Source of the DNA: Sulfolobus acidocaldarius SUSAZ
GTDB taxonomy: Archaea; Thermoproteota; Thermoprotei_A; Sulfolobales; Sulfolobaceae
Direction: 5' to 3'
Assembly (NCBI GenBank): GCA_000508305.1
Contig: CP006977.1
Coordinates: forward strand, 1,830,621-1,894,620
Length of the DNA stretch: 64,000 nt
The notes below the pieces were generated by a model, which saw only the letters and a list, made by a program, of their open reading frames with translations, was not told where the DNA came from and did not search any database. Positions 27,694-53,050 of the stretch are shown piece by piece. The first letter of the stretch is position 1. The number at the start of each line of letters is the position of its first letter. The translations under genes were made by a program, and so were the position numbers.

Positions 27694-27740
27694 TCCTACC
27701 TATTCCCAAAAGGAGTTAAAGCATTTAATTTGTCTAATAA

Positions 27741-27749
27741 ATATTTATT
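27741..27749 (+). promoter_or_regulatory. TATA box of csa1
   Basis: ATATTTATT centred about 26 bases before the ATG at 27772, implying a leaderless transcript typical of Sulfolobales. Confidence 0.45.
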
Positions 27750-27771
27750 CTCCTTTTTCTCTATTTTATAT

Positions 27772-28635: not shown

Positions 28636-28737
28636 GAATTTTAGTCAAAAAGCGATCATTACATCAATTGTATAACTCCCTAAAAGCATTATTTTAAAGT
28701 TTTATCTCTGTATTAAGATTTCTCATTATCTGCTAGA

Positions 28738-29410: not shown

Positions 29411-29412
29411 TG

Positions 29413-29682
29413 CTACACGCAGTACGCACATTCCATCGGATGCCTTCACCGAGTGTGATTAGGACAACGCTGATTACCATGGGTCAACACATCACCTGTG
29501 TGAGCCGTGATATTTTTACTTTCACTCAGAAAAAATAATTTTGTCTAGTCGAGACGTGATACCCACTGAAAAATAAGTGGAGAAAGCTCGAAAAATGAAG
29601 AAGACGCAATAATAAGAAGAAAGAGAAGGAGACGAGAAGCGGGAGGAAAAAAGGGAAAAAGAGAGGAGAAAAAAATCCCATC
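29413..29682 (-). terminator. Pyrimidine-rich tract after the cas3 operon
   Basis: On the minus strand, directly after the cas3'' stop, comes GGATGGGATTTTTTTCTCC followed by some 100 nearly all-pyrimidine bases with several T-runs (29680-29580). This is a convincing archaeal termination zone. The remainder (29413-29570) has no recognisable gene. Confidence 0.5.
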
Positions 29683-30354: not shown

Positions 30355-32189
30355 AATCTCAAACCTAATTCTTCATTGTAGTTTCTAGGGTCTACGTGGA
30401 AGGCTACTAACATGTATTTCTCCTTTCCATTCCCGTAATAGGGTGTGAGTTCACCGTTCCCTTTCTTCACGAAGACGTTCGTGTAGTTACTACATAAGCA
30501 TCTCCTGTCTCTCAAGTACCTTCTAGGGAAGCAATCCTCAACTACGGTTACTGTATCTACACCATTTCCCTCGTCAACGCTGAACTTCTCGAAGAATGCC
30601 TTAACGCATTCCTGGTCCTCGATAGAGCGCAAGAAGTAATCTCCATCTACTGATATCAAATCGTCGTGGCTTTTAGGAATCTCAGTCGCCAGACTAACCA
30701 CGAAGGAGTCTGTCAGAGAGCAGTAGTCGCTTAAGATCTCCTTTAACTGCTGTTTCGTAGAAAAGAAGTTGAAGTCCAGATGGGTCAACTTGTCATACAG
30801 TTCCCTTTGTTTGTAATCGAATGGAACGGTATTGTAAACGCGTTCGATAATTTCACTATAGCCTTCCGCATTGCCACATCCGTAAGGGTGTTTGAAGCAT
30901 ATTATTCCATTTTTCCCCTTGATCTCATTCATCGTTCTCTCAACCTCTTCCTTGCTGTAAGGATAGTACTTGTCGTCCTCTATAATGTATATTCTTCCTT
31001 CTCCTTCCCTATTCCTCAAGATCCTTCCAGCCCTCTGAACTAAGGAAAATATTGGAGCCTGTTCAGTTATGAGGACGTCGTAATCCAGGTTTACACCGAC
31101 CTCTATAACTTGCGTCGCTACAACTATCCTCTTAAAACCTTTCCCTCTCTTATCCTTTTCCTTAAACCTGGAGTGAATCAATGAAACATCCTCGTATTTT
31201 TGCTTCAACTTCTCGTAAACTTCTATTGCGCCATCAACAGTGTTCATGACTATTAAGATCTTCTCATCCTTGTGAGCGTTAACTATTTCCTCTAATTTCT
31301 CCTTCTTTATTACCTCAATTGGCACGTAAGGCGTCCTGAATTCCTTGTCTGCTATTTCCACCAACGTGAAATTTATATCGTTATCTAGGTCGCATTCGTA
31401 TTCCCTAATCTCGTCCTTCTCTTCTTCTCCTCTTTCTCCTATCTCTCTACAGTTATACTTCTTCTCAGCGTCGCCGAAATTCCTCACTACCTCTATTTTC
31501 ACTACCTCTTTCCCCCACTTAGCTATATTCTTCACTATCTCGCTGTCTATTGCTTTACTAGAAGACGCTGAGGACAGTATCATGTTGACTCCATGCCTAG
31601 CTAAAACGCTGACGCTGGCGAGAAGCGACGCCCACGAATTACCTTCTCTCATTAAGTGATATTCGTCGAAGTGGACAATCGAAGTGAATATTGAGAACCT
31701 TGGAATATCGTAATGCCCATGGACCGAGAAAGGCTCTCCAACGCTTCCCTTGAATAAATTCATGAGGAAAGAGTCATAAGTGGTAATGACGAAGTCAGCC
31801 AAGAAATTAGGTGTTTTAGTCTCTGAGGGGGCGAAGGAGTACTGAACTCCGTAGCTTAACTGCGCCTCCCTAGCTTTCTCCTCGATATCCCAGATTAGCG
31901 TCTTAGTAGGAACCACGTGAATTATCCTAGAGAAAGTGGTAGTAACGTTTTCTTTCAAATACTTAGCTAAGGTTAGGGAGAGAGTTGTCTTGCCATAACC
32001 TGTTGGGAAGTTAAGGATGAAGTTAACATCTTTACATTCTGAAAGCTTCCTATCATTTATTTTCTTGTCGCTATCCCTACAGTTAAGTATATCCCAGAAC
32101 TTATCAACGCCTAATCTCATTAGATCAGCTCGTCTCCAGATCCTATGAAAGTCTGTTTTTAAAGTTAACGCATGACAAATCATCAACAC
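30351..32189 (-). CDS. cas3': Cas3' helicase of type I-A
   Basis: 612 residues. Superfamily 2 motifs: Walker A FPTGYGKTT (61-69), VVPTKTLIWD (Ia), FDEYH (D175-H178, the DExH box), SSAS (III), VATQVIEVGVNLDYDVL (V) and QRAGRILR (VI). It unwinds target DNA for Cas3''. The start is uncertain: GTG at 32189 or ATG at 32183, with a TTTAAAAA stretch just inside the gene that could instead promote a shorter form. It is split from cas8a2 by 418 bp, so it may be transcribed separately. Confidence 0.94.
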   Translation of the reverse strand: MLMICHALTLKTDFHRIWRRADLMRLGVDKFWDILNCRDSDKKINDRKLSECKDVNFILNFPTGYGKTTLSLTLAKYLKENVTTTFSRIIHVVPTKTLIWDIEEKAREAQLSYGVQYSFAPSETKTPNFLADFVITTYDSFLMNLFKGSVGEPFSVHGHYDIPRFSIFTSIVHFDEYHLMREGNSWASLLASVSVLARHGVNMILSSASSSKAIDSEIVKNIAKWGKEVVKIEVVRNFGDAEKKYNCREIGERGEEEKDEIREYECDLDNDINFTLVEIADKEFRTPYVPIEVIKKEKLEEIVNAHKDEKILIVMNTVDGAIEVYEKLKQKYEDVSLIHSRFKEKDKRGKGFKRIVVATQVIEVGVNLDYDVLITEQAPIFSLVQRAGRILRNREGEGRIYIIEDDKYYPYSKEEVERTMNEIKGKNGIICFKHPYGCGNAEGYSEIIERVYNTVPFDYKQRELYDKLTHLDFNFFSTKQQLKEILSDYCSLTDSFVVSLATEIPKSHDDLISVDGDYFLRSIEDQECVKAFFEKFSVDEGNGVDTVTVVEDCFPRRYLRDRRCLCSNYTNVFVKKGNGELTPYYGNGKEKYMLVAFHVDPRNYNEELGLRL

Positions 32190-32607
32190 ATTTCTTCAAC
32201 ACATAGTGTTTCTGACGTAAATAGATTTCCTCACGTCCTTGAATTTGGTCTTCATCTCTATCTAGAACTTTGATTTTATTGTTATTACCATCATCATTAC
32301 TATTTTTTGTTTTGTGCTATAATCCATTTTGCCGAAATCTTCTCGTTTATAATCAACAAACTTCATGACGTCCTAAGGCGACATTAATTCTACAGTGATT
32401 AATGAGTATACTCAAGTTGAATAAAAAATAATTGCTTATTTCTCGTTTTGTTTTTTCTCTCTTTTCCCTCTTCCTCTTGTGACTTCTATAAAGACTAAGT
32501 TAAAATGGCTAAGATCTTCTACTCCTCATCTTTACTTCCACTGCCGCAGAGTTTTTCAGTAATAATTCACTCGTTGACTGCACATAGCTTGACAATCACA
32601 TTACCCC
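32190..32607. other. 418-bp gap inside the type I-A locus
   Basis: No gene or element is recognised. The minus strand after cas8a2 has A/G-rich sequence. On the plus strand the run TTTTGTTTTTTCTCTCTTTTCCC (32446-32468) is pyrimidine-rich. It could hold the cas3' promoter near 32230-32190. Confidence 0.35.
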
Positions 32608-33648
32608 TTAATAGCTCTCTACGCCAATGGACCTCTGCGAAATAACGTAAGATACGCCTTCCTTGAGCTTCCTCACATCATAGATGCTCAAGGGTGGATC
32701 ATCCTCACTAAGGTTCTCTCTCCAGATCATGATGGCCATCTCTTCCGGTGAAATTGAACCTCCTAAGGCTTCAAATACCAGGTTAACTATCCTATTCATG
32801 AAGTCAGCTACTTTCTCGTTGCTGAGAGCCCTTTTAACGTAATAAGGTATCTCATCCTTGTACTTGAGCCTCAGGAACTTAGAGAGCTCGATGAATGATC
32901 TTATAGAGGCATAGCTGTTGTTCTCTATTACCTCAGTCCTACGCGATGAGGTCAACATTATTATCTTCTGAGCGTCCCACAACTTGAATGAAAAGGAGAA
33001 TATCCTATTTAGGTGCGAGAACCTCTTCAAGGCATCAGGTTTACCAGAGATGCGCAACTTATCCTTGACATATAGTTTCTTGAAGTCCACTAATTGTGCA
33101 CTGAAGGATGAATCTATTGGAGCTAACACTATGTAACTCATAAAACTGTTACCTATTTTGCTCTTAAACATTATTATCCTAAACCATGAAAAGGACAACG
33201 TCGCTAAGAAAGCTGATAGAAGAGTTATTTTAATGGACTTGTAACCTTTCTTAGCAGTCTTTCCATTCCATCCTCCAAACCATCTCTCAGCCTCCATGGT
33301 CTCTGGTAGGATCAAGGGATAACCGTCAGTCTCGCTGTCGGCATTGTTAATTAGCTCGTCAGCCGTTATCTTCATGAGGAGCTCTATTATGTCACTGTAA
33401 TTTCTCGTGAAACCCCTCAGCATACTCTTCAGCTCTTCGTCATTCTTCATGTCATTTACTGCACTGTTTAACACTTCCTCCATGAGTTGTTTGGTGGGAG
33501 CTCGTAACTTCAACTTGTCTCTTTCAACCTCGTAGTCTAATCCCAACTGTTTCAGGTAAATCGCTGAGCTCATCGCCAATTCTCTAGATAAAAAACCTTC
33601 CATGGGTAGGGTAGTGGTGATTTCCACTTCCTTCTTTTCTACTACCAT
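32608..33648 (-). CDS. cas8a2: Cas8a2 (Csa4), large subunit of type I-A Cascade
   Basis: 346 residues, the usual Csa4 length. There is no simple catalytic motif. The identification rests on position (after cas5a, before cas3'), size and family-like sequence (EITTTLPMEGFLSRELAMSSAIYLKQLG at the N-terminus, SPEEMAIMIWRENLSEDDPP near the C-terminus). In I-A systems it recognises the PAM and recruits Cas3. The ATG overlaps the cas5a stop (TGAGATG). Confidence 0.85.
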   Translation of the reverse strand: MVVEKKEVEITTTLPMEGFLSRELAMSSAIYLKQLGLDYEVERDKLKLRAPTKQLMEEVLNSAVNDMKNDEELKSMLRGFTRNYSDIIELLMKITADELINNADSETDGYPLILPETMEAERWFGGWNGKTAKKGYKSIKITLLSAFLATLSFSWFRIIMFKSKIGNSFMSYIVLAPIDSSFSAQLVDFKKLYVKDKLRISGKPDALKRFSHLNRIFSFSFKLWDAQKIIMLTSSRRTEVIENNSYASIRSFIELSKFLRLKYKDEIPYYVKRALSNEKVADFMNRIVNLVFEALGGSISPEEMAIMIWRENLSEDDPPLSIYDVRKLKEGVSYVISQRSIGVESY

Positions 33649-34421
33649 CTCAAACCGCCTTTAGGTACTATAACGAGCGAATTATTCACCTTGTATACAG
33701 TACACTCTTCACGATATAAATTGCTCACCTTCATGAAACCACCAAACAGTGGTCCATGTTTAGGTATCACGAACTTCTCAACATTTGGCTTTTCATCAGA
33801 AGTGGGTGCCTTCGATGACAATTTATAGATTCCAGTCATAGGCATTTCTACACCTTCATCTGAATTCACGCATTTGGATGGGAAGTAGAAGTTAGTGTTT
33901 ATCTCGTCAGGAGCGCTCATCTCCTCAACTTCTCCTTCAATGACTTTTAGCACGCTAACTAGAGACTCCTTCGAGCCTAACGACGTCACTTGCCACGCTA
34001 ACTTCCTCCATAACTCTTCCTTACCCCTCAGAAGTAAGAGAACGTTGAAAGTCGTCATAGGCGCATATATCTTACCGAAGGCTGAAACTCCAAACCAGTT
34101 CTGCATTTCTTCCAATTTCCTGTTCTTCTCCTGTCTGTAAGGAACCCTCTCTTCCCTCATTAAGTCTGAGTATCTGATCATCAGTGGTTCCTCAGTGCCG
34201 TAAGTTATCCAGAAAAGGTCCTTCTTTGCCAGTTGATCCACGAATTCCTTAGTGCATGACTCGTTCCTCTCGTTTACAGCGTGATTACAGTAACCTCTAG
34301 AGAGCGCTCCAATCAGTGTGGAAACTGGTGGCATGGGAAATGACTCGCCACCGGCTGAAGCTGAAGGGTACCTTACGGAATAACCCCAGTGATGCTTCCC
34401 TACAATCAGTATTCCGTACAT
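33642..34421 (-). CDS. cas5a: Cas5a, type I-A Cascade subunit
   Basis: 259 residues. The N-terminal RAMP strand MYGILIVGKHHWGYSVRYP is followed by ESFPMPPVSTLIGALSRGY, the Cas5-type P-P-x-T-x-x-G-A-L motif. KHGPLFGGFMK sits near the C-terminus. Cas5 binds the 5' handle of the crRNA and caps the Cas7 filament. It lies 37 bases after cas7 and overlaps cas8a2 by 7 bases. Confidence 0.9.
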   Translation of the reverse strand: MYGILIVGKHHWGYSVRYPSASAGGESFPMPPVSTLIGALSRGYCNHAVNERNESCTKEFVDQLAKKDLFWITYGTEEPLMIRYSDLMREERVPYRQEKNRKLEEMQNWFGVSAFGKIYAPMTTFNVLLLLRGKEELWRKLAWQVTSLGSKESLVSVLKVIEGEVEEMSAPDEINTNFYFPSKCVNSDEGVEMPMTGIYKLSSKAPTSDEKPNVEKFVIPKHGPLFGGFMKVSNLYREECTVYKVNNSLVIVPKGGLRW

Positions 34422-34458
34422 TTAATTCCCTGACCTCATTAATTGTCCTTTCAGCTCT

Positions 34459-35511
34459 CTAATGTCCCTCCATGGATTTTTCTTCTAATTTCTTTTTTAC
34501 AGCTTCCTTCATTTCCTTGAATGGCTCCACGGGATCCTTCTTGGACTCTCCCTTGATAGATGACATCAACTTGTCCTGCGCGTAAAACGTAAGGATAGGT
34601 TTCTCAATACCTAGACTTCCAGCGAAGGAATCTATCGTGGACTTAGTGAAGTTAATGTAGTCATCAATCTTTCCGTTCTCTAGCGTAATTGGCAAGAGGT
34701 TGAAAGGCTTCTCAGATAAGGAAAGCGCTACGGCCTCTATATCGATTATCGGTTTGAACCTGCTCTGCTTCGCCCCGAAGAGGAACTGTGTGAGGGTCAA
34801 ATTCAACGCGTCGAGAGAGGAAAGGATCCTTTTCTCCCTCTCATTATCATTGCTTTTCTCCTTTTGCTTATTATCATCTATACAGAGAGTGTAACAACCT
34901 TCTTTTTCAGCGCATTTCAACGTTTGAGTACAACCTATTCCGTCGACATTTAGGTATCCAGTTAGCACGTAAGATGCGCTAGCCACTTCAACGTTGAAGA
35001 GAGATTGTTGGTCTATCAACTCCTTGGTGACGTACCTAACGTGGAACTCCGACGTTATTCCTACGCTCTTCACTGAGTCAAGTGAAGGTATCATGTAGCT
35101 GAACGCTATGTTAGATACCCTCTTAGCTAACTTACTTGGATTCATGAAGCCTGCAACGTCCTCCACGACGTCCTCCTCTATGACGCATAGCTCGTAGTCA
35201 GCTCCATCTTTATCTTCGCAGTTAGACCCTACATGAACGTTGTCTCCGGCACCTCTCTTAATGAATACCCCTTGCCTCGCTAAGGCATCTACTTTTAAAC
35301 CACTCTTGGTAGCAATTTCAGCTAATTCCCACTGATAACCGTGAGCTATCATTTCGCCGCTAATTGCGGGAACGTAAGATATTACGTAAGAGTTGTTGTC
35401 TCTGAAGATAACTGGAGCCCTTCTGTGTCTTATGTAATTCCCTGCTGACTCTACGTTATTCAGGTCTTCAACGTTCACTAGGTACCTTATGGAGAATGAG
35501 AGCCAGCTCAT
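34459..35511 (-). CDS. cas7: Cas7 (Csa2), backbone subunit of type I-A Cascade
   Basis: 350 residues from ATG 35511; a GTG at 35523 is possible, but GGTGG just before the ATG favours 35511. SFSIRYLVNVEDLNNVESAGNY is followed by RRAPVIF and PAISGEMIAHGYQWELA, the typical Csa2 block. Multiple copies coat the crRNA. A middle insertion with Cys pairs (CTQTLKCAEKEGCYTLC, near 200-215) might bind metal. The start overlaps the csa5 stop. Confidence 0.93.
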   Translation of the reverse strand: MSWLSFSIRYLVNVEDLNNVESAGNYIRHRRAPVIFRDNNSYVISYVPAISGEMIAHGYQWELAEIATKSGLKVDALARQGVFIKRGAGDNVHVGSNCEDKDGADYELCVIEEDVVEDVAGFMNPSKLAKRVSNIAFSYMIPSLDSVKSVGITSEFHVRYVTKELIDQQSLFNVEVASASYVLTGYLNVDGIGCTQTLKCAEKEGCYTLCIDDNKQKEKSNDNEREKRILSSLDALNLTLTQFLFGAKQSRFKPIIDIEAVALSLSEKPFNLLPITLENGKIDDYINFTKSTIDSFAGSLGIEKPILTFYAQDKLMSSIKGESKKDPVEPFKEMKEAVKKKLEEKSMEGH

Positions 35512-35512
35512 T

Positions 35513-36016
35513 TCAACTACCACCCATGGCGAGTTCTACTAATTCTCTCGCGACGTATATGTTTTTATTCAATTCGTTCATGAAAGACTTCAGCTCGAAC
35601 TCTGATGGAACAGAGACCCTTATATTTCCATCCTTTAAGAAAACGACCGGGGAAATGCAGTACTCCTTCTCATGTGAGGACTCGCCCTTGACTATCTCGT
35701 GAACTACGTCTTTATAACCTCTCACAAACAATTCCTTGATGTCTGATTGCTTGAGGATTGCTAAGCAAGGTATCTTGGCTTTCTCGGTATTTCTCGTCTT
35801 CCTATTGTAAATGAAAGCCTCCTTTTCCACAGCTGACTGCATGTATGATAGATACTCCCTAGTGGCTTGAGTTAAAGTGTCCTTTATTACGTTGGGATCT
35901 AAGGAATAGATTAGTGGGTCGAGGTAGCCGAACCTCCTCAAAACAGCATAAACCCTCAACATCTTTATTAATGAAAGATGGAGGATCTTCTTCTTTGTTT
36001 TCTGTGTTTCTACCAT
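35513..36016 (-). CDS. csa5: Csa5, small subunit of type I-A Cascade
   Basis: 167 residues, first gene of the operon. LIKMLRVYAVLRRFGYLDPLIYSLD and the DTLTQATREYLSYMQSA helix match Csa5, which binds R-loop single strands in I-A complexes. It begins with a leaderless-type ATG 20-30 bases from a TATA box and ends overlapping cas7. Confidence 0.87.
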   Translation of the reverse strand: MVETQKTKKKILHLSLIKMLRVYAVLRRFGYLDPLIYSLDPNVIKDTLTQATREYLSYMQSAVEKEAFIYNRKTRNTEKAKIPCLAILKQSDIKELFVRGYKDVVHEIVKGESSHEKEYCISPVVFLKDGNIRVSVPSEFELKSFMNELNKNIYVARELVELAMGGS

Positions 36017-40148: not shown

Positions 40149-40853
40149 ATGAGCTGTGCTGACTTAGACGTAATTGACACCATTATAAAAGTTGAGGGAA
40201 AAATAGTAAACTTAACTCCTTTAAGAGTAGGTCAAGGTAAGTCACAAGAATTCACGGAGGCTACAGATAACCCAGTTATGAAAATAAAGGGAAAACCTGT
40301 AATACCAGGATCGTCATTGAAGGGAGCCTTTAGAAGTATGGTAGAGGCTTACGTCAAGTCATTGAATGATCAAAAATACAGAGTATGTGACATCAATGAC
40401 GATAAGTGCACCTCTTGCGATGACCATAGTTATTGCATACCATGTATACTTTTTGGCTTCAAGGATTTAGCTTCACGAGTGTACATACTGGACTCTATAG
40501 CAGAGGAGTTCTCAATTGGACAGAGAACTATGGTCACAATTAATCGAGTATCCGGTGGGCAATTGACCGGGCATCTATATACGCTTGATTTCGTAGAGCC
40601 AAACTCTAAGTTCAACTTCTCCATGATGATATATAACCTAGACTTAGTGAACCAAGAAAAAGAGGATTGGAAGAGGGTTTCAGTAGATGCATTAAAATAT
40701 GTACTAAAGACTCTCCTCACAGAAGGTATCTTCGTAGGAGGTCGGAAGAGTGTAGGATATGGTTTGATAAAGTTAACTGAGGGCAAATTAAAATTATACA
40801 AATCCCCAGACCTCTTAACTCCTAAAGAGTACGATTTAGCCAAGGTGATCTAA
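40149..40853 (+). CDS. Csm3-like Cas7 RAMP of type III-D
   Basis: 234 residues. The RAMP core [16 protein letters not shown] (48-63) is the glycine-rich crRNA-binding loop. ATDNPV places D40 where Csm3 carries its target-RNA-cleaving Asp. A cysteine cluster ([11 protein letters not shown], then [11 protein letters not shown]) probably binds zinc. [14 protein letters not shown] is the C-terminal G-rich motif. Likely a backbone subunit that cuts target RNA. Confidence 0.88.
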
Positions 40854-41690
40854 TTGGTAGATTACACCTTCATAAGGAAGGATTTAGTGAAGAGGACAGT
40901 AATAATTGATGGAGAAATAGTTACGTTAGCTCCACTGAGGATAGGGGTTGGTAGGGGAGGTAGCTTGGATCCTACCAGTATCGCTAGGGATACGATATTG
41001 AAGGACCATAATGGAAAACCAGTTATCCCTGGTTCATCATGGAAAGGTATATTCAGATCTACCGGAGAGAGGTTATTATCATCGAAAAACGTTGAAGTAT
41101 GCAGTGGCGTAGGAAATGATAATTGTTTAAAAAAGAAAGGATTAGATGATGACTTCCAAAACTTGTTAAAAAGAAATAACATTGATAAAGCGTTAGAAAT
41201 GTTTTGGGGAAAAACTTGCCTAAATTGTAAACTCTTTGGAACGATGGGAGTAGTAGGCAATCTGAGATTCCTAGACTCGGTCGCAATAAACTACACCTTA
41301 GGTATGAGAACCATGATAGCGATAAGTAGGACTAAAGGAGCAGTTGCTAAGAGAGCATTGGTGCAAGTCGAATATGTTGAGCCTGGCTCAACTTTTACAT
41401 TTAAGCTAATTGGATATAACTTACCTAGCTATGCTATCGGTTATATTGTTAATATTATGAAAACTATTAATGATGGTTTAACACAAGTTGGAGGACATAA
41501 GAGTAGAGGTTTCGGTTTCGTTAGGTTCTCCAAACTAAAGTTTACCAACATTGGTGAAAACAAGGTAGAAGAAGAAGACGTTAAAGTCGACTTAAATTCA
41601 GCAGAAGGAGATGGAGATAAGTTCTTCGAGTTAATGAAACCATTTATAGAGGTATTCCAGAATGCGAAGATCCCCTATCCAGAGAAATGA
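40854..41690 (+). CDS. Csm3-like Cas7 RAMP of type III-D (second copy)
   Basis: 278 residues from a TTG start directly after the previous stop. [22 protein letters not shown] is followed by [17 protein letters not shown]46 is the likely cleavage-site Asp. CLKKKG and [12 protein letters not shown] hold probable zinc cysteines. [15 protein letters not shown] is the C-terminal glycine loop. Paralogous to the 40149 gene, as expected in III-D complexes, which use several different Cas7 subunits. Confidence 0.87.
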
Positions 41691-42483
41691 ATACACCAAA
41701 AGAAACTCTAACGGCATAAGTGGTGTAATAGAGCTAAGATTATCAGTGAAGTCGGACTATTTGCACGTGGGAAGTGGATCCTCAACCTATAGGCTAGTCA
41801 AAAAAATAGATAATATTGACGCGTTGGTAGAAGACGCAATAGAGGGTAATATACCAGACCTCTCAGCCTATTTTTCGCCAAAACTCCACTTAATGACCAA
41901 GTATAGTAATGGTACATTCATAATTCCTGGGTCAACAATAAAGGGATTAGTGAGGACTAGACTGGAATTATCAATACCTGGAAGTTGTTATATAGTCTCT
42001 AAGGATGCTAGCAACACCTCTCAGACCTATAGGAATATATTTAAACCTAGAAAAAAGCCAAGAGACAGATTCGATCCAGTAAAATTTCCTAAAGTTTGCC
42101 CGGTGTGTGATCTCTTAGGAAACAGTGGCTTAGCTAGTAGAGTAACGTTTAGTGATTTCGTAGGAGAGAAAGTTAATTCTCAAAACGTTAAAGTAAGGGG
42201 AGACGAATATGAATGTGTTACAAAGAACTCTACTTTTAGGGGTAAAGTTGTATTTAAAGGATTGAAGAGTGTAGAAATAGGAATGTTACTCTACGGTTTT
42301 GGGTTTAGAATAGGTAATAACACAATTACATCTAAGACTATGTTATTAGGTAGGTTTAAGTTCTCAGATAGGCAGTTTGGAAGAGTTCAGTTCTCCCTCG
42401 TCAACTCTAATCCTAATTACCTTAATTACTTAAAGGAGTTCGTATCCAAATTTAAACCATTAGATTTCAACGAGGAGTGGTAA
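41662..42483 (+). CDS. Csm5-like Cas7 RAMP of type III-D
   Basis: 273 residues, overlapping the previous gene by 29 bases. The N-terminal strand [20 protein letters not shown] is followed by [42 protein letters not shown] contains a CPxC pair and the RAMP G-L-A-S-R-V-x-F-S-D block. It is longer between strands than the Csm3-like subunits, closer to Csm5, which caps the 3' end of the complex. The glycine-rich C-terminal loop is weak. Confidence 0.8.
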
Positions 42484-42484
42484 G

Positions 42485-42646
42485 ATGAAGATCTGTATTC
42501 GTTATGATCTCTCAGTCGATTTAGATTGTAAAAACCTTAGTGACTATCTATTCGTAGAGGAAGTTAGTGAAGAAAGAAAAAATGATTATTCCCTCATAGA
42601 ATGGAAAAGAGGGAAGTATATAAAGAAGGTGGTAAAATGGTCCTAA
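42485..42646 (+). CDS. Small 53-residue ORF between the Csm5-like gene and cas10
   Basis: The ATG lies one base after the previous stop (TAAGATG), preceded by GAGGAGTGG, a good Shine-Dalgarno. The frame runs 53 codons (MKICIRYDLSVDLDC ... KKVVKWS) and its stop overlaps the preferred cas10 ATG at 42637 by 10 bases. That is tight enough for translational coupling and would explain the otherwise 150-base gap in a packed operon. Charged, with two Cys. I do not recognise it. It could be a small III-D subunit, a regulator of Cas10 or an unselected frame. Confidence 0.45.
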   Translation: MKICIRYDLSVDLDCKNLSDYLFVEEVSEERKNDYSLIEWKRGKYIKKVVKWS

Positions 42647-45201
42647 GAGGTAAATTATTACTACCAGACTTTAAGGTAGAGTTCGTCGACGAGAATAAGG
42701 TGAGTAAACTAAAAGATAAAATAGTGGACGTCTTATTCCAGTTGGCAACTCTTTCATGCGAAATCGCTAATAACGATGAGAAGAAGGCAATTGATATATA
42801 TGCCGACGTATTATCCTTCCTCTATAAAATGCCAATGTTATTCTCATACTCGCCTCATTCCTCTAGTAAATACGTATCTAATGCCTCTGAATACTTCTTC
42901 ATTTACGTTATTTTTAGGCATTTAGAGAACATTAGCTCATTAGAGCTTGAAGAGATTTTTAAACAGCTAGAGAGTAAGAGAAAGGAATACGACGAGTTGA
43001 TTAGATATGTTATAACTTCAAATGATATCAGAGAAATCTATGAGGGATTACTTTACACTCCTGCTGATACTAGGCCAGGTTATAACTTCACTTCCCTTCT
43101 ATCGCACCTACAACTTTCCTCCTTATTAGCTTGGGCTTTACAGCCTCAGTCGTTAGACCTAAACTACTTAAGAATAGCAGGACTCCTTCATGATATTGGA
43201 AAATTGATTGATCCCACGCATCACGTTACCGCCTCATCTGAAATACTAGAAGGTGTAATTGAGAGAGGTAAAAAGACCGGCTTATGTATGGGCCAAACAT
43301 TGAAGAAAATATTAGATTTAATTAAACAACATCACGACCCTAATTTTGAAAACATTCTAAAAAAGGCTGATAGATTAGCTGCATCAGCAGATAGATTAAG
43401 TGCCATAGTCGAGAAGTACGTTAACCAGACCCCTATTGCGGCTTGTTATCAAGCATGCTACACTCGTAATGCTGACTTTAGTATATGTAATCAATGTATT
43501 GAAAATACTGGTAAGAATTATGAACAAGCTAAAAAGAATTATGAAGAGGCCAGCAAGATCCTATTTAAGCGGATAATCGCTGAGACCATTGAATTGAGTA
43601 GATATAAGAATTACACTAAGTTCTTCGAGTTTCTAAACACTCCAGAGATTAAGAAGGTTGAGCAAGGAAAGCTAGAAAGCCCTAAAGCTTACCTAGTTTA
43701 CGTAGACTTTCCTGGGATTCAAAAGTTTATAACTAGCTTCCCTAAGTTAAGGGACATGTCATTTGCCAGTATGTTAGTTGATTTTCTGACCTCAGTTTAC
43801 GCCTTCATACTCATTGATACGGAGCTCAGTAAGCTTGGAAAATCTAGAATACCAGCCGAGGCGTTACTAAGTGGCTATGGAGGTCACTCATATATCGTAG
43901 TAAGAAGTGATTTAGGCAAGGATCAAGTTAAGAAGTTATTTGAAAAAATCATTGAGCCTATCGACGTTAAGTTAGATGTGAAAATAGTTGATTTCATCTA
44001 TGACAACTACGTTAAGAACTTCAACGAAGTATGGGCTGATATCCTAACACAACAGTATGAAAAGTATCTGATTAACTTCGACGAACAAGTATACTCCTTA
44101 GGTCTCCATGAGGTTTGTACGAGTTGTGGGATTAGACCAGCCATTGCTACGAGTGAAAACGATTCTCTTTGTAAGAGATGTAAATTCGTCAGGGATCTCT
44201 CAAACCAGAGAGGTTTCGTAGCCAAGGTTAATGCTGATTATTCATTGGATGGAACTTCAGTCAACCCATTAGAATACGCTCAAAAATATTTAGGAGATGA
44301 TTATTTATCCTACGCCATGGAGTTCATCGCGGGATATAAGCAAAAAGAAGACACTAAATACGTGGGTCTTATAAAAGCTGATGGAAATAATGCTGGGGTG
44401 ATTTTCATGACAAGTGTAACTTTCTCAGATTATATCGATAGAAGCTTTAGGCTGGATTATGGGATAAAGAAGTCATTTTATGAGACCATATCTGAGTTGG
44501 CTAAAGTAAATAAAGACTTGGCGAGTAAGGTCCTATCAGGTGTGCTATATCTAGGTGGAGACGACGTTATGATATTAGCTCCATCAATAATTTCCATACC
44601 ATTTGCAGTTAAACTGTTTGAGAGAGCAGAGAAGAACACCGGATTCACGTTTAAGGTCGGGGTAATATCAGTTAAGCCACACCATCCAGTCCAATTCGCA
44701 TATCACGCGGTAAATGAATTAATGGAGAAGAGTAAGATAGAAGAAGCTAACAAATCTTCAACATCTTGTTTAGTCTTCTCGTCAACACTAGCATCAGAGG
44801 GGGTAATTAAGACCGAAATCTCTAAATATAGGAAGGAAAAGTCATTCCTCCTAGTATCAAATGATTTAGATGACGTGAGGAAATTGTTAGATCTAATAAC
44901 CAATAACCAAGAAATATTTAGCTTCATTTCAAGTATATATGATAAAGATAAGAATGCAAGTGAGGAAGTGAGGAAATTCATTAGACCTCTTGAAGACGTA
45001 GTAAGTTACGCTGACGCCTTATACGGCACTGACAGATATTTCTACGAAACCGTAGCTTACATGGTTAGGAAGAGGTCTAGGAGTGATGATGAATACGCTA
45101 AGAAACTATTAATGCTATTATTAAGTAAGATAAGTAAAAATACCATTCCACTTTACGATTACTACTTCATGTTAAAGACTATAAGAGTAGGGATAGGGTG
45201 A
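42637..45201 (+). CDS. cas10: Cas10 (Csm1) of type III-D: HD nuclease plus cyclic-oligoadenylate synthase
   Basis: 854 residues from ATG 42637, chosen because AAGGTGG lies just upstream; ATG 42601 is the alternative. An N-terminal HD domain has LLHDIGK (H185-D186) and THH. A Cys cluster (C270, C274, C284, C287) forms an apparent extra metal site. The inactive first palm is followed by a zinc module CTSCG...CKRC (from C494). The second palm has KADGNNAGVIF near 581 and the catalytic GGDD at 640-643 (YLGGDDVMIL). On target RNA binding, Cas10 makes cyclic oligoadenylates and can cut ssDNA through HD. Both active sites look intact, so Csx1 and Crn1 have a local partner. Confidence 0.95.
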   Translation: MVLRGKLLLPDFKVEFVDENKVSKLKDKIVDVLFQLATLSCEIANNDEKKAIDIYADVLSFLYKMPMLFSYSPHSSSKYVSNASEYFFIYVIFRHLENISSLELEEIFKQLESKRKEYDELIRYVITSNDIREIYEGLLYTPADTRPGYNFTSLLSHLQLSSLLAWALQPQSLDLNYLRIAGLLHDIGKLIDPTHHVTASSEILEGVIERGKKTGLCMGQTLKKILDLIKQHHDPNFENILKKADRLAASADRLSAIVEKYVNQTPIAACYQACYTRNADFSICNQCIENTGKNYEQAKKNYEEASKILFKRIIAETIELSRYKNYTKFFEFLNTPEIKKVEQGKLESPKAYLVYVDFPGIQKFITSFPKLRDMSFASMLVDFLTSVYAFILIDTELSKLGKSRIPAEALLSGYGGHSYIVVRSDLGKDQVKKLFEKIIEPIDVKLDVKIVDFIYDNYVKNFNEVWADILTQQYEKYLINFDEQVYSLGLHEVCTSCGIRPAIATSENDSLCKRCKFVRDLSNQRGFVAKVNADYSLDGTSVNPLEYAQKYLGDDYLSYAMEFIAGYKQKEDTKYVGLIKADGNNAGVIFMTSVTFSDYIDRSFRLDYGIKKSFYETISELAKVNKDLASKVLSGVLYLGGDDVMILAPSIISIPFAVKLFERAEKNTGFTFKVGVISVKPHHPVQFAYHAVNELMEKSKIEEANKSSTSCLVFSSTLASEGVIKTEISKYRKEKSFLLVSNDLDDVRKLLDLITNNQEIFSFISSIYDKDKNASEEVRKFIRPLEDVVSYADALYGTDRYFYETVAYMVRKRSRSDDEYAKKLLMLLLSKISKNTIPLYDYYFMLKTIRVGIG

Positions 45202-45815
45202 GGAAAGTGGAAATCATAATTCTCTTCAAAAACCTTACCTCCTTGACTATTGCAGGGGGAAGTGCAATAGGGATAGTAGATATTCCATTCAACGAATTGG
45301 GAATTCCCTCCTCATCAATAAAAGGGGTTATGAGAACAGCAATAAGTAACCTATTGCCAAATGCCTCGTGTGGTGAAATTGAACCTGGAAGATTAGAAAA
45401 AGCACATGGCTCCTCTCCCTGTGATGTATGCAAACTTTTCGGCTATCCTAATTCGAAGGATGGAGCATGCTTCACCATATTAGTGGATCAAGTTAAAGAG
45501 GAAAAACATTTGATCACAAGAGTATCAATTGATGATAAAACGCAAAAGGCTAAGGATGGTTCACTATTCACCCAACAAATCATAAAGCCTGGCGTAGAAT
45601 TTAAGGCAACAATTATTTACAAATGTGAAAATGACGCTAAACTGTTTAACCTTTTACTCTACTCACTATCTGCATTAAGGTATTGGAGATTGGGTAGAAA
45701 CGCTATGATAGACGTTAAGGTTTTGACTAAGAAAGATGAAGTGTGTAAAAAGATAAAATGTAACGATGAAACTGAAAAATTGTTTGATTCTCTATCAGAT
45801 TACTTATGGGGGTAA
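45198..45815 (+). CDS. Csm3-like Cas7 RAMP of type III-D (third, short)
   Basis: 205 residues from a GTG overlapping the cas10 stop by 4 bases. LTIAGGSAIGIVDIPFN has D28 in the Csm3 active-Asp position. GIPSSSIKGVMRTAI is the crRNA-binding loop, and CDVCKLFGYPN a C-x-x-C pair. The C-terminal G-rich loop is reduced (YWRLGRNAMIDVKV). Confidence 0.83.
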   Translation: MRKVEIIILFKNLTSLTIAGGSAIGIVDIPFNELGIPSSSIKGVMRTAISNLLPNASCGEIEPGRLEKAHGSSPCDVCKLFGYPNSKDGACFTILVDQVKEEKHLITRVSIDDKTQKAKDGSLFTQQIIKPGVEFKATIIYKCENDAKLFNLLLYSLSALRYWRLGRNAMIDVKVLTKKDEVCKKIKCNDETEKLFDSLSDYLWG

Positions 45816-45822
45816 GGGGCTA

Positions 45823-46728
45823 ATGCATTTCGTGTTATTGAAAATAACGGTAAATAGATATATTACAGCTCAGCTGAGGAAAGTAGGAAACTACTACTTC
45901 TCAACAGTTGATTACATTCCATCAACTACGTTAAGAGGGGCTATCCTAGCTGAGTATTATTATCAGAAAGGGAAAATAGAGGAGGACTTCTTCGTGTCTC
46001 CAGGATATCCAATAAATACCTTACCATCCCATTACTTTAGCCCAGCCAAAGATAGAAAGGACAAGACTTTTATTGAAACTAAGAACGTGTTAGAAGAGAA
46101 GGATAAAGTAATAGGAGAGGGTAAAATATCTGAAGCCATGAAGGTAGAGGGAAAGCCTAAGATAGGGACTCTAATAACTTATAAAGAAGATAATGGAAAT
46201 CAAAACTTTTACGAGCAATTCTCCGCTGAGTCAACAATCCAAATGCATGTGGCAATAGATAAGACGAGCATTACATCATATCAAGGCATGTTGTTTGCGT
46301 ATGAGTATAAGAGATTTGGTGAATTGTGGGCATTAGCTAAGCCAAGTGAAGTGATAGATTTAGTTAAGAGAGTAAGCATAGGTAGAAGTAAAAATAGAAC
46401 TAACAACATTGCTGAGGTGAAAAAGGTAAGGGATTTAGACTTAGATGATCCCAAAGGCTTATCCTATTGCCTATCCCAATGCGTACCATCACTTTTTGAC
46501 AAGAAGTTCTTCGATTCTAAAGCGATCATAGGAGATACATCACTTTACACTGGTTGGTTTACTACTAATCTAATTTCCGGAACTAAGCCAGTCCTTAAAA
46601 CCTTAAAGGAGGGTACGTTAATATATATAGATAAGTATTATGACTCAAGGATTATGGCTTCAGGTTTGAACTTCATCCTTAAAATACGTGATCTAAAACA
46701 CTTACTAGATGAGGTGAACAAATCATGA
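45823..46728 (+). CDS. csx10: Csx10, Cas5-type RAMP that defines type III-D
   Basis: 301 residues from ATG 45823, which follows GGGGGTAAGGGG; a frame extension to 45766 overlaps the previous gene and is unlikely. LLKITVNRYITAQLRKVGNYYFSTVDYIPSTTLRGAILAEYY is the Csx10 N-terminus (Cas5 fold, P-S-T-T-L-R-G-A motif). RVSIGRSKNRTNN sits in the middle and YYDSRIMASGLNFILKIRD at the C-terminus. It takes the Csm4 place, binding the 5' crRNA handle and Cas10. Confidence 0.87.
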   Translation: MHFVLLKITVNRYITAQLRKVGNYYFSTVDYIPSTTLRGAILAEYYYQKGKIEEDFFVSPGYPINTLPSHYFSPAKDRKDKTFIETKNVLEEKDKVIGEGKISEAMKVEGKPKIGTLITYKEDNGNQNFYEQFSAESTIQMHVAIDKTSITSYQGMLFAYEYKRFGELWALAKPSEVIDLVKRVSIGRSKNRTNNIAEVKKVRDLDLDDPKGLSYCLSQCVPSLFDKKFFDSKAIIGDTSLYTGWFTTNLISGTKPVLKTLKEGTLIYIDKYYDSRIMASGLNFILKIRDLKHLLDEVNKS

Positions 46729-47453
46729 CAGAGGTCTATCTATATAGGTTAAAGTTTAATTTGCCAAATGGTCTAAGAGTTGGAGGAGTATATGACACTA
46801 CTGAACCACTGAGGATAGGCAGTGAAGAATACTTAATACCCTCAAGCAGTCTTAAAGGAATGTTTAGAAGGGTCACAGAGATTGTATTAGGTAATGCTGA
46901 TCACTTTAACCAACACTCTCAAGTCAATAATGTTTACAGTAAATATAAGGCTTTAATACAGAATTGCGAAAATAATCCTAAAAACTGTGTTGATGAAGTT
47001 GTTAAGATAGCTGTAGCCAAGGGAATAAAAGATGAAAAAGAATTCGTAAAGCTCTACAATCAATACAATTGCCCCATTGAGAGGCTTTATGGAGGAGACT
47101 ACTTCGCCGGTAGTATAACCATATCTGACGTATTAGTTAAAACCAACAATATTGAAAGACCTCATGTAGTTATTGATAGAAAGGCTAAGACTAATTTAAA
47201 GAAGTATTTATTTACCGAGAAGATCCTGGACTTGAGATCAATTGAGGTTAAGGTAATCATAAGGGGGGAGGCAAACTATATACCTTGGATGAGAACTCTC
47301 AAGTTCATGAGAGAAGTGGGAACTTTCATAGGTAACAGCAAGTCTAGGGGAATAGGGTTCATACAATTGGATGATAAGGAGAGTAGTATGGCAAGAGTGT
47401 ACTCCCTCTTAGATAAACCAATATTCAAACCATTAAATGATGAGCTGAAATGA
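46725..47453 (+). CDS. Csm3-like Cas7 RAMP of type III-D (fourth)
   Basis: 242 residues, ATG overlapping the csx10 stop (ATGA). GLRVGGVYDTTEPLRIG is followed by YLIPSSSLKGMFRRV. RLYGGDYFAGSITISDV is the RAMP block after the helical insertion, and FIGNSKSRGIGFIQL the C-terminal glycine loop. A helical insert with few conserved residues spans about 60-110. Confidence 0.83.
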   Translation: MTEVYLYRLKFNLPNGLRVGGVYDTTEPLRIGSEEYLIPSSSLKGMFRRVTEIVLGNADHFNQHSQVNNVYSKYKALIQNCENNPKNCVDEVVKIAVAKGIKDEKEFVKLYNQYNCPIERLYGGDYFAGSITISDVLVKTNNIERPHVVIDRKAKTNLKKYLFTEKILDLRSIEVKVIIRGEANYIPWMRTLKFMREVGTFIGNSKSRGIGFIQLDDKESSMARVYSLLDKPIFKPLNDELK

Positions 47454-48265
47454 TGATATATTCCATGAAATTCGAGGTTGAACCAGAGCATGACGTTTTA
47501 ATCCCCCCATTCACCTCAAAATTGGGAAGACAAATCCTAGTTCAGATGAGTAAAAATTATTCAGAAATAGTTGAAGACTCCAGACCATACAAGCCAATAA
47601 GAGTGAGTGTAATAAAGGATGAGACTGGAAAATTACTTTTTTCAACTGGCAATAAAAAGATTGTATTGAAAGGTAAAGGGAAATATTACTTCACTTTTTC
47701 CTTCATGAACGCCGCATTTCTTGAAGAAATACTTCAAAACTCACAAAAAGTATTAACTTTTTGGCAAACAAATTTCAAAGTAGAGCTAACCGACGTTAAG
47801 ATAACTGAAAACGTCGAAATAGAAGATGCTAAGCTTTATAAAATCATTTTCCTGACACCAACATTACTACAACCATTGAGACCTTCTATTAAAAGGAAGA
47901 AGAATAGGTTCATATTATTCCCCTACCCCCCTTATCTAATTTCCTCCATCGTAAGGCATTGGAATTTCAATAATGACGAAAAGATATATAACGTGCTAGG
48001 TTCTAAAGCATTATACTACTTTCGAGAAGTGGATTATAGGCTAAGGCCAATAACAACATATTATGGAAACAAACCAGTAAGAGGATTCACCGGTTGGACA
48101 ATATATCAGTTGTCAGCAAGAAAAAACAGCAAATTAAGAGAAAACATAAGAAAGCTCCTAGGCTATGCAAATTACTTAGGAGTAGGAAAAAGCAGAGCAA
48201 TAGGATTCGGAGAAGTAAAAGTAATTCCTATCATCGAGAACCCTCCTAACAAGAAGATCCTTTAA
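47450..48265 (+). CDS. cas6: Cas6, CRISPR-transcript endoribonuclease
   Basis: 271 residues, ATG overlapping the previous stop. Two ferredoxin-like halves are seen. The C-terminal glycine-rich signature YLGVGKSRAIGFGEVKV (about 244-260) is diagnostic for Cas6. RHWNF near 169 is a possible site for the general acid or base. It cuts within the repeat to leave the ATTGAAAG handle, and would serve both arrays and both effectors. The stop codon is 3 bases from the degenerate last repeat of array 2. Confidence 0.92.
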   Translation: MMIYSMKFEVEPEHDVLIPPFTSKLGRQILVQMSKNYSEIVEDSRPYKPIRVSVIKDETGKLLFSTGNKKIVLKGKGKYYFTFSFMNAAFLEEILQNSQKVLTFWQTNFKVELTDVKITENVEIEDAKLYKIIFLTPTLLQPLRPSIKRKKNRFILFPYPPYLISSIVRHWNFNNDEKIYNVLGSKALYYFREVDYRLRPITTYYGNKPVRGFTGWTIYQLSARKNSKLRENIRKLLGYANYLGVGKSRAIGFGEVKVIPIIENPPNKKIL

Positions 48266-48268: not shown

Positions 48269-51200
48269 CTTCCAATCCCTTTTAAGATACTTCTTTGCAA
48301 CGCCCTTACTTATTGTATCCACCTCATACTTCTTTCAATCCCTTTTGGGATGCATCTATTTCATCAAATTGCATTTCGTTTACAGAAAGAGAGCTTTCAA
48401 TCCCTTTTGGGATGCATCATGGCAGAAGCAAAAGGTAAAAAAACATCTGATATTTTTTTCTTTCAATCCCTTTTGGGACGCATCATTGCTAGTGTCTCAT
48501 GGTTAACTCCATGGGATTACCTTTCAATCCCTTTTGGGATGCATCTTGCACATCAGCCCATGCTTTCCCGCCGGGCATGCGCATTCTTTCAATCCCTTTT
48601 GGGATGCATCACTAGACGAAAGAGATGAAGAGGATATACGAAGAAGATATCTTTCAATCCCTTTTGGGATGCATCATTTATATGGGGCTATAGATACTAT
48701 GTAGCAGATTATTATTTCTTTCAATCCCTTTTGGGATGCATCAGGCTACTATAGTGCTACACGAGTTAGTTGAAAGCTATCTTTCAATCCCTTTTGGGAT
48801 GCATCGAGAGGAATGACTCAATTAATTACATTAGAAGAAATATTCTTTCAATCCCTTTTGGGATGCATCGACAAAAAGCCACTACTATTACCTCTGGTGA
48901 ACTATGCTTTCAATCCCTTTTGGGATGCATCTTGATTTTACAGAGGTTGACAGAAAAATTCAGCTTATCACTTTCAATCCCTTTTGGGATGCATCAAAAT
49001 ATTAGTTCAGGCAGGATGGAGAAGGAGTATCTTCTTTCAATCCCTTTTGGGATGCATCTATTAGAGAACAAGTGGAAAATTATAAAATGAATGCATTCTT
49101 TCAATCCCTTTTGGGATGCATCGAATTATTTTGATTTATTTGTTTCAATATCATCACATCTTTCAATCCCTTTTGGGATGCATCATTACAAACATTAAAA
49201 GATATACCTGATATAGTTTTTGATCTTTCAATCCCTTTTGGGATGCATCTTTTTGAAACATCAATGCAAATTGAAGTTGTTGGAAACTTTCAATCCCTTT
49301 TGGGATGCATCAAAATTTGCCGTAAATAACACTGAAATAACCACAAGTAACTTTCAATCCCTTTTGGGATGCATCTTGTTTGTCGTCGATTAATATGCCA
49401 TGTGATGCTAGACTGCTTTCAATCCCTTTTGGGATGCATCATATGTAAATCCAAATCTTAAGTATTTTGTTTTTTTAGACTTTCAATCCCTTTTGGGATG
49501 CATCTAACGTATTGCGCCGTGAGAAAAATTAGCCATAAAAATCTTTCAATCCCTTTTGGGATGCATCATACAAAATATGTATACATTATACGTTAACGCA
49601 TTAATGGCTTTCAATCCCTTTTGGGATGCATCGAGACCATGTCCGGACCCATAATTGTCCAGGAACCAGATGACTTTCAATCCCTTTTGGGATGCATCGG
49701 ATGCATCAAGTGGATATCGCCGACCCACAGTACTATCATTCTTATATTCTTTCAATCCCTTTTGGGATGCATCCCGGCTGTGAGTTTTGCACCGTTATCG
49801 CCCATGTGGGATATACTTTCAATCCCTTTTGGGATGCATCTGGTTACGATTATTTCCGTTTAGATAAAATTGATGTTTGCTTTCAATCCCTTTTGGGATG
49901 CATCTTGGCTACGATTATTTTCGGCTGGAGCAAGTTGATATGTCTTTCAATCCCTTTTGGGATGCATCGTAACATTAATAGGTGAAGATGTATTATTGAC
50001 TAGAGGCTTTCAATCCCTTTTGGGATGCATCCTACCGGCGAAAATAGCTGCTGCCTTAGATATTGCGTATGGCTTTCAATCCCTTTTGGGATGCATCAGA
50101 CTATGACACACATGACAGGGCAATTCTATATCTGACTTTCAATCCCTTTTGGGATGCATCACAGATGTTGACCCAATGGTATGGATAGCAAAAATAATAC
50201 TTTCAATCCCTTTTGGGATGCATCAAGCGGAAGATATCTGAATATTTATGCCAATAGAATTTTCCTTTCAATCCCTTTTGGGATGCATCCAGACTTTTCC
50301 ATCTTCGGTATGACCGCTTACCGCCTCTACTTTCAATCCCTTTTGGGATGCATCGGGATGTGAGTGAAAAATCGTATAATCCATTGATGGATACTTTCAA
50401 TCCCTTTTGGGATGCATCAAAGAGAGAAAATAAAACAATTTATCAACTTAGTGGTGGGCTTTCAATCCCTTTTGGGATGCATCTTTTATTATTATTATAT
50501 AAAGTAAATGTATAATAAATACTTTCAATCCCTTTTGGGATGCATCCTGCAGACGTGTTCATTATGGACTGTGAGGGCTGTGACTTTCAATCCCTTTTGG
50601 GATGCATCTTTTTGAAACATCAATGCAAATTGAAGTTGTTGGAAACTTTCAATCCCTTTTGGGATGCATCAAAATTTGCCGTAAATAACACTGAAATAAC
50701 CACAAGTAACTTTCAATCCCTTTTGGGATGCATCTTAATCAGTTAAGCGTGTCAGTAGTAGAATATTTCCACTTTCAATCCCTTTTGGGATGCATCGGCG
50801 TATTTGTTTCTCGCGCAATTATAGCCATAAGTATCCCTTTCAATCCCTTTTGGGATGCATCATGGAAAATTGATGATCAATATTGGTGAGGACAAATTTA
50901 TCTTTCAATCCCTTTTGGGATGCATCTAATATCCATCTTTGCACAACAGTTCGCGCAGCATTTGTACTTTCAATCCCTTTTGGGATGCATCAACTGACTA
51001 TGAATACGGCGAACCGGAAAGGGCTTTAATCTTTCAATCCCTTTTGGGATGCATCGAAATTGTGCGAAAAGCAATAAGGCTATACTACGAGCAGACTTTC
51101 AATCCCTTTTGGGATGCATCAGCGTTGGCGGGTAATACGCTGACTTACATTAGTGATGACTTTCAATCCCTTTTGGGATGCATCCCAGGGTTACAAAGGC

Positions 51201-52616
51201 TAACATTGAAAATTAACTACGCAAGCTTTCAATCCCTTTTGGGATGCATCAATAAAGAGATTCAGCTGATCAAGAGACTGAAGGACGCTTTCAATCCCTT
51301 TTGGGATGCATCTAGTGAGACCAGGCGACGAAGTTATCATGAAACCATTAAGCTTTCAATCCCTTTTGGGATGCATCTCAGTTAGTATTAGCGGTGCTTC
51401 AGGGTATAAATAACTACCCTTTCAATCCCTTTTGGGATGCATCACTGTATCGTTATCTCTATGTTTTTTGTTGCTAATCTACTTTCAATCCCTTTTGGGA
51501 TGCATCGGGGCAGACTTATTCCATGAAATCGCTTTGCAGTTGCAGAACTTTCAATCCCTTTTGGGATGCATCCTGATGAATTGAAAAAAGGATTAAAAGA
51601 CAAAACTTATCTTTCAATCCCTTTTGGGATGCATCAAAAATAATTTGTGCCGATGCGTGTGATAAACTACAGTTGACTTTCAATCCCTTTTGGGATGCAT
51701 CAATCCTTCCTCCTCGCATTCTCCTCTGTACATTTGTAACTTTCAATCCCTTTTGGGATGCATCAAGTGATTCTGCGCCATGCATTGCCAATAAAGTGTT
51801 CACGTCTTTCAATCCCTTTTGGGATGCATCATGATACTGAATCATGACCCCATCTTCTATTCTTTTAAAGCTTTCAATCCCTTTTGGGATGCATCATATC
51901 TACAATCATGACCGAAGCGCTATTGTCCTGGCAAACTTTCAATCCCTTTTGGGATGCATCGTCTTCTCTCTAAACCCACGAGTACATTCACAATAACTTC
52001 TTTCAATCCCTTTTGGGATGCATCCAGCACCCAAACATTTACAGACGAGAGACTACTGTAAGATTCTTTCAATCCCTTTTGGGATGCATCACGCGGTAAA
52101 AGCGCAACTATTAAGCGTGGTAGAAAAGTACTTTCAATCCCTTTTGGGATGCATCATACGGCATCACTGATGCCATGTTATCGGTAATGAAAACGTAGAA
52201 AAGTACTTTCAATCCCTTTTGGGATGCATCAACTTCACTCGCAAATAAGGTATCCGCGGGCAAAATCCTCCTTTCAATCCCTTTTGGGATGCATCAACAC
52301 GAGACCAAAGCCCTCACATCCTGACGGGATAAACACTTTCAATCCCTTTTGGGATGCATCGTGAGGATCAACACACGGAGAAACCTTGGAGAGGTCTTAA
52401 TACTTTCAATCCCTTTTGGGATGCATCCAGTCCCCCGCGCCCAGTGGGGAAGTTTCGAGTGAAAAACTTTCAATCCCTTTTGGGATGCATCTTACAATTC
52501 AAGTTGACGGGCAAACGCTCTCAGTAACCTTTCAATCCCTTTTGGGATGCATCGTTATTTGTTCTCCCAGTGTAGCTCCCGGTATTTGTGTCTTTCAATC
52601 CCTTTTGGGATGCATC
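48269..52616 (-). CRISPR. CRISPR array 2, about 67 repeats
   Basis: Same repeat as array 1, about 64-base period. The leftmost unit (48269-48293) is degenerate (CTTCCAATCC...AAGATACTTC, five changes) and the next spacer is 38 bases; from 48332 repeats are near perfect (one GGGACGCATC variant near 48475). Transcribed leftward from the leader at 52617-53050 toward the III-D operon. A two-spacer block is duplicated (49250-49350 and 50609-50709). One spacer is 50 bases (52156-52205). Confidence 0.98.
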
Positions 52617-53050
52617 TGATGTGTTTATTAATCTCTTTCCTTATTTTCTCCTTCTCTGCTAATAAGTTTTACTTTTTTTCCTACTTTTCTCATCCTACCC
52701 TATTTCCTAGTAATTTTCTTTCCCTTTTTTGGTTGGATGGTCTTTTAATTGAATTGAAAGTTATGGAGTGTTTTTAAACGTTTAATTTGTGAAGAGATTT
52801 TCAAACCTTCCGCATTGAGACTCGAAATTTCACGTTTTTATTACCAACATGAAAATAGAACTCCCTCCTTATAATTAATTTAAACTAAAGTACTATCATA
52901 GTAATATCACGTTAAAAAATCATTAAAAAATGATGGAATATAAGAAAAGAAATTCACAAGAAGAAACAAATAACCTTTTAAAGACATTTAAATAAACACG
53001 AAACCACCTAAAAACACACCAAACAAAAAATAAAAAATTTTCAACACAAA
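52617..53050 (-). promoter_or_regulatory. CRISPR leader of array 2
   Basis: 434 bases nearly identical to 26268-26701; the identity ends one base short of where the cas4 stop codon begins in the first copy. TATA-like ACTTATTAGC at 52658-52666 on the minus strand. No cas gene adjoins this copy. Confidence 0.85.

Follow-up and report, generated by a model that had tools for sequence, protein, structure and literature searches.

Primed adaptation is known for CRISPR systems of types I-E, I-B and I-F. A review of the CRISPR systems of the Sulfolobales found no evidence for priming despite many matching spacers, and gives TCN as the PAM reported for type I-A subfamily 2 of this order (PMC4390879). 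In S. solfataricus, about 50% of DNA degradation persists when as many as 15 mismatches lie outside the seed (PMC3905844). The locus described here has an array with its leader near Cas1, Cas4, Csa1, Csa2 and Csa5, as in type I-A subfamily 2, and two adjacent spacers in it are very probably memories of one homologous site in two related viruses.

The window, a 64,000-nucleotide stretch of the Sulfolobus acidocaldarius SUSAZ genome (2.06 Mb, a single contig), contains two CRISPR arrays that share the 25-nt repeat CTTTCAATCCCTTTTGGGATGCATC (Table 1). The count of this repeat across the whole genome, 236, is the same as the total in arrays 1 and 2, and there is thus no third array with CTTTCAATCCCTTTTGGGATGCATC. 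Both arrays are read from the minus strand and have degenerate repeats at their left ends, with the youngest spacers rightmost. Because each array has its leader on the right, spacer 49905 (spacers are named here by their first position) would be younger than its neighbour, spacer 49841. The families of cas genes, taken with the PAM subfamilies known for the order (PMC4390879), by themselves place this host in the Sulfolobales.

Table 1. Arrays, cas genes and spacers discussed in the text (positions are those of the window; nt, nucleotides of SMRV1 where so marked).
Feature	Position	Strand	Remarks
CRISPR array 1, 168 spacers	15348-26267	-	Repeat and orientation as in array 2
CRISPR array 2, 67 spacers; left (old) end has a degenerate repeat	48269-52616	-	
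Leader of array 2, 300 nt	52617-52916	-	99.7% identical to array 1 leader, 26268-26567
Type I-A cas gene region	26703-36016		Located between the arrays
Cas4	26703-27272	-	
Csa1	27730-28635	+	
Cas3''	29683-30354	-	
Cas3'	30351-32189	-	
Csa2/Cas7	34459-35523	-	
Csa5	35513-36016	-	
Cas1, left of array 1	14281-15180	-	
Type III-B-like cassette, six RAMP proteins and Cas10 (42601-45201)	40149-48265	+	
Cas6, adjoins array 2	47450-48265	+	
Putative older spacer of the focal pair; plus strand = GYDYFRLDKIDV	49841-49879	-	crRNA from minus strand; SMRV1 nt 4490-4528
Repeat separating spacers 49841 and 49905; = consensus	49880-49904	-	
Putative younger spacer of the focal pair; plus strand = GYDYFRLEQVDM, one-base shift	49905-49943	-	SMRV1 nt 4489-4527
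ATPase spacer EQHSLARLLLQTF, directly upstream of focal site	20867-20908	-	SMRV1 nt 4450-4491
ATPase spacer LEPAQNVEVAKEL, other strand	24911-24949	-	SMRV1 nt 4398-4436
ATPase spacer SALSTGLENCVWT	17105-17144	-	SMRV1 nt 4802-4841
ATPase spacer VLFPSVLRSLVEL, other strand	20737-20777	-	SMRV1 nt 5060-5100
Same-PAM, non-identical pair, member 1: RYVEEFARSGY, SMRV1 gp17 structural protein	15436-15472	-	PAM end nt 14778
Same-PAM, non-identical pair, member 2: QLKYIEQFASAGY	20671-20711	-	PAM end nt 14778

An earlier note on this DNA had described spacers 49841 and 49905 as neighbours that encode homologous peptides in frames one base apart, and this is borne out both by the two sequences and by a translated comparison of all spacers. 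Each spacer is 39 nt long; 49841-49879 translates as GYDYFRLDKIDV when read from its second base and 49905-49943 as GYDYFRLEQVDM when read from its third, and the one-base offset between the frames is real. When the 235 spacers of both arrays were compared all against all in translation, with identical spacers collapsed, this was the top pair (score 54), the null maxima being 38 for four shuffles and 42 for reversed spacers. At the nucleotide level the pair scores 18, barely above the chance level set by shuffles, which reach 17; the resemblance is therefore one of protein or coding sequence. Aligned by codon, the two agree at 28 of 38 bases, and the 10 differences fall on third (six) and first (four) codon positions, with none on a second position. 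This distribution bears on the idea that one spacer was duplicated in tandem within the array and that the copies then drifted apart, a process for which array 1 offers identical tandem spacers and array 2 a duplicated block of two spacers. Drift in an array is not codon-aware, however, and the changes seen here avoid second positions and keep the peptide. Nor does a one-base register shift at both ends arise by duplication, and the actual duplicates are identical, while the repeat between 49841 and 49905 is unchanged. Tandem duplication is thus almost certainly not the origin of the pair.

Both spacers fall on residues 175-186, GYDFFRLTEHDI, of orf08 of SMRV1 (Sulfolobales Mexican rudivirus 1, NC_019413), in agreement with the proposal of the earlier note that they target homologous sites in related genes. 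The product of orf08 is the rudiviral ATPase of the SIRV1 ORF440 family (Pfam BrxL_ATPase; PHROG 6542), the SIRV3 counterpart of which is annotated as an ATPase with ssDNA-annealing activity, and the Walker A motif follows some 40 residues downstream of the target site. Against GYDFFRLTEHDI the two spacers score 43 and 42, values reached by about 0.0002 of shuffled spacers when the SMRV1 proteome is searched, and no outliers for single spacers across twelve virus genomes in six frames, where reversed spacers score up to 49. The case for this target consequently lies not in the single matches, but in the pair taken together, in the null specific to SMRV1, in the residues that are conserved and in the outcome of the pattern search. 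Five residues at the site, F174, G175, Y176, D177 and D185, are invariant across ten rudiviral ATPases. The G, Y, D and D of this set are encoded by both spacers, and for the invariant Phe the spacers hold only a compatible T and TT ahead of their Gly codons. The codon-degenerate pattern GYD[YF]FRLxxxD[IVM] retrieves one record, SMRV1, from 2.9 million viral contigs.

The lack of a shared gene, which the earlier note gave as its refutation, did not come about. The shared gene was found by way of a relative and not by way of an exact protospacer, none of which is present for 49841 or 49905 among phage records, viral contigs and prokaryote genome contigs. At the target site, SMRV1 has 49-54% nucleotide identity to the two spacers. 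It is the closest known relative of the donor viruses and not itself the donor; the donors are accordingly named through this relative, and the flanks of its sites stand in for theirs. When each spacer and both arrays were searched as nucleotides against phage records, the focal pair had no matches beyond those of chance. A joined query of 32 residues made from the pair had no match, a strict degenerate pattern for the site had none among viral contigs, and the other 30 genomes of the host family contain no match. Two further sets of matches were rejected: GYDYFRL[DE] alone occurs in 12 viral contigs, in the context of unrelated proteins or short frames, and a scan of genome contigs returned ten bacterial records, none of them from Sulfolobales.

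Two alleles of the site raise the question of how many viruses supplied them. The ATPase is single-copy, tblastn finding one place per record in 48 of 48 virus records, and with one ATPase per genome a pair of alleles implies a pair of genomes. The exact donor genome is not among the known ones and one infection could supply both spacers, so that a single virus with two diverged ATPase genes, or with two genes sharing the motif, might be considered as the source of both. The uniform single copy in the tblastn records and the relaxed pattern, which matches one place in all viral contigs, make such a donor highly unlikely. Since the gene is present once in every known rudivirus, the two spacers probably came from two diverged viruses similar to SMRV1.

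The focal pair belongs to a larger set of spacers directed at such viruses. At a translated score of at least 40, 42 of the 235 spacers (41 without a tandem duplicate) match proteins of SMRV1, where 0.25 would be expected. Their nucleotide identity to SMRV1 is 49-84%, and nucleotide searches match other spacers to SMRV1 at 84-88% identity. The most-targeted genes are gp17 (nine spacers), the ATPase (six) and the glycosyltransferase gene gp27 (five). Judged by these matches, the set appears to point to an unsampled lineage of rudiviruses. The crRNAs of 27 of the 41 spacers are complementary to viral mRNA and those of 14 are not (p = 0.06), a bias that hints that the type III-B module, which targets RNA, makes use of them.

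The sites assigned on SMRV1 also allow the PAM to be read. GA occupies flank positions 2-3 in 19 of the 41 sites, against a background of 6.6% (p = 2e-12), with no enrichment at the neighbouring flank positions. In crRNA sense, GA at these positions corresponds to a 5'-TCN PAM, which sits at the leader side of the protospacer, as read on the relative SMRV1 rather than on the donors. A CCN PAM had been assumed first and was ruled out by these same flanks. The enrichment of a PAM at the SMRV1 sites lends independent support to the spacer assignments. Directly after the register of 49841, SMRV1 has CGA, equal to the PAM TCG, which is formed by the final base of a codon together with the Asp codon that follows. 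The TCN in SMRV1 is therefore exact for 49841 and one base off for 49905, both ends of which are displaced by one base relative to its neighbour. Either NGA lies one base earlier in the virus that gave rise to 49905, or cutting slipped by one base. The equivalent PAM suggested in the earlier note thus agrees with the rule deduced from the other spacers and with the TCN that SMRV1 carries at the homologous place, one base off for 49905. Its proposal to locate protospacers and PAMs in viral genomes succeeded for the PAM, through the SMRV1 flanks, but not for an exact protospacer.

It appears very probable that spacers 49841 and 49905 record two different relatives of SMRV1 among the rudiviruses, each spacer having been taken from the orthologous site of a single-copy ATPase gene. 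The Cas1 machinery of the host would select sites that adjoin a TCN PAM, and the codons after the ATPase site, as they stand in SMRV1, would form that PAM. Purifying selection on the ATPase would tend to preserve both the site and its PAM across virus species, so that the same place would be offered again by each rudivirus relative, of which the host may have sampled two. Spacer 49841 would have been taken first and 49905 next, from a relative that differs by 26% at the site. The ATPase mRNA is complementary to both guides, which could thus be used by the DNA-targeting type I-A effector and the RNA-targeting type III-B effector alike.

The first guide would be predicted to recognise the second virus poorly. 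Counted from the PAM and compared from position 2 onward, the guide of 49841 has 10 mismatches to the sequence of 49905, at positions 3, 5, 11, 14, 15, 18, 20, 21, 24 and 36, at least two of which lie in the seed, and the two seed mismatches make protection by 49841 against the second virus doubtful. This weak recognition, and the fact that the putative younger spacer adjoins the older one, would also be expected if the first virus had escaped by mutation and returned, the re-infection envisaged in the earlier note. An escape mutant should carry its changes in the seed or the PAM, however, given the tolerance of S. solfataricus for mismatches outside the seed (PMC3905844). The 10 differences in 38 bases, with none at second codon positions and with the invariant residues kept, instead resemble divergence at the level of species, accumulated over a long time under purifying selection. 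Escape is very unlikely on this evidence, and the second virus, poorly covered by the guide of 49841, was probably a distinct relative rather than an escape mutant.

That the two spacers are neighbours might mean that the first had a part in the uptake of the second. In primed or cross-primed uptake, as also put forward in the earlier note, the guide of 49841 would have bound the second virus imperfectly and steered the adaptation complex to the same place. The pair is indeed adjacent, on the same strand and at an equivalent PAM, and of the 10 pairs of SMRV1-matching spacers that are neighbours, 2 lie within 100 nt of each other in the virus (permutation p = 0.011), but this count includes the focal pair, which was picked for its likeness, and without it 1 of 9 is close, about the level of chance. 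The other close adjacent pair, 19303/19367, lies 48 nt apart in one gene. Priming would moreover be expected to yield spacers beside the target and not the same target again, it would have had to work across ten mismatches, two of them in the seed, and the review of the Sulfolobales reports no evidence of it (PMC4390879). Spacers 15436 and 20671 share a PAM end in gp17, yet they are separated by 81 spacers, showing that priming is not needed for a PAM to be used twice. Priming is therefore an unlikely source of the pair. A version of it in which adjacency is causal, with uptake from a diverged relative being guided to the homologous site by an older spacer that matches only in part, is quite unlikely; if true, it would amount to same-site, cross-species primed adaptation in a type I-A system.

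The simplest account is that a conserved site was sampled repeatedly by the ordinary machinery. A 27-kb rudivirus has about 3,600 PAM sites, so that 0.23 same-PAM coincidences are expected for 41 spacers, and two are observed (P = 0.022); this mild excess can be explained by conservation together with the detection of conserved sites. SMRV1-matching spacers form 10 adjacent pairs where 6.9 are expected (p = 0.12), and their clustering in the arrays is not significant. The adjacency of 49841 and 49905 is itself mildly unusual, with p of about 0.02 given two same-PAM pairs, for a pair that was chosen post hoc. Acquisition in sequence, as the earlier note assumed for neighbouring spacers, is likely, although the adjacency itself stands out only mildly.

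Further related pairs came to light on comparing all spacers, in translation, as that note had suggested, and at the nucleotide level. The overlapping spacers 15436/20671 and 48932/51251 likewise carry two alleles. Spacers 22113-22151 and 51702-51739 encode YYRGQCEEEGLL and MYRGECEEEG (score 50), in opposite orientation and in different arrays; a pattern for this pair had no match among viral contigs, and patterns for the pairs 24651/50161 and 23676/25561 had no match or matched four viral contigs. Spacers 15881-15919 and 23747-23790 have TTAAGCGTTTAACTTTTTAT in common (nucleotide-level score 22), an AT-rich conserved viral site that is possibly non-coding.

The arrays also record irregularities of their own. 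The exact tandem duplicates of array 1 are 22963-22998/23024-23059 and 24393-24431/24457-24495, and in array 2 a block of two spacers with their repeats is duplicated exactly (49225-49350 and 50584-50709), 21 spacers apart. The 50-nt spacer 52156-52205 is chimeric in appearance: its first 39 nt match SMRV1 gp17 (27/39) and are followed directly by TGA, a perfect PAM, whereas its last 11 nt, GTAGAAAAGTA, are the same as those that close the older neighbour 52091-52130. It looks like an integration in which the target that was duplicated comprised the repeat and also 11 nt of the spacer next to it. Two more long spacers, 19432-19477 (46 nt) and 49699-49748 (50 nt), start with GGATGCATC, which equals the final 9 bases of the repeat and gives the impression that this end was copied a second time.

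The pair at 49841 and 49905 shows one place of a conserved viral gene stored twice in one array, apparently from two virus species, and conservation of the protein probably tends to conserve the PAM as well. Reading the spacers in translation succeeds where nucleotide searches fail: about one sixth of the spacers can be placed in a rudivirus lineage without sequenced members, and the PAM becomes readable through translated matches without any exact protospacer. This is ordinary CRISPR memory that is unusually readable, and the understanding of how such memory is made is unchanged by it.

In its composition, the locus has no fundamental difference from type I-A subfamily 2 of the Sulfolobales, with which it shares the 25-nt repeat, spacers mostly of 36-46 nt, the Csa1, Cas4, Csa2 and Csa5 genes, the TCN PAM and a type III-B module in the neighbourhood (PMC4390879); here the arrays, with 168 and 67 spacers, are long, and most of the targets found resemble SMRV1. 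Primed adaptation as in types I-E, I-B and I-F would likewise yield successive spacers from related invaders, but the pattern of positions expected of it is not shown here, and prior evidence from Sulfolobales is lacking (PMC4390879). SMRV1 is matched in its proteins by about 41 spacers and is the sole carrier of GYD[YF]FRLxxxD[IVM] among viral contigs, and differs from the donors in that its nucleotide identity to the focal spacers is no more than 49-54%. The spacers of S. islandicus against related SIRVs (PMC6452263) offer a close parallel, with many spacers against lytic rudiviruses, with mismatches and with dependence on the PAM; whereas that study counts mismatches to known viruses, here a single array records two alleles of one site.
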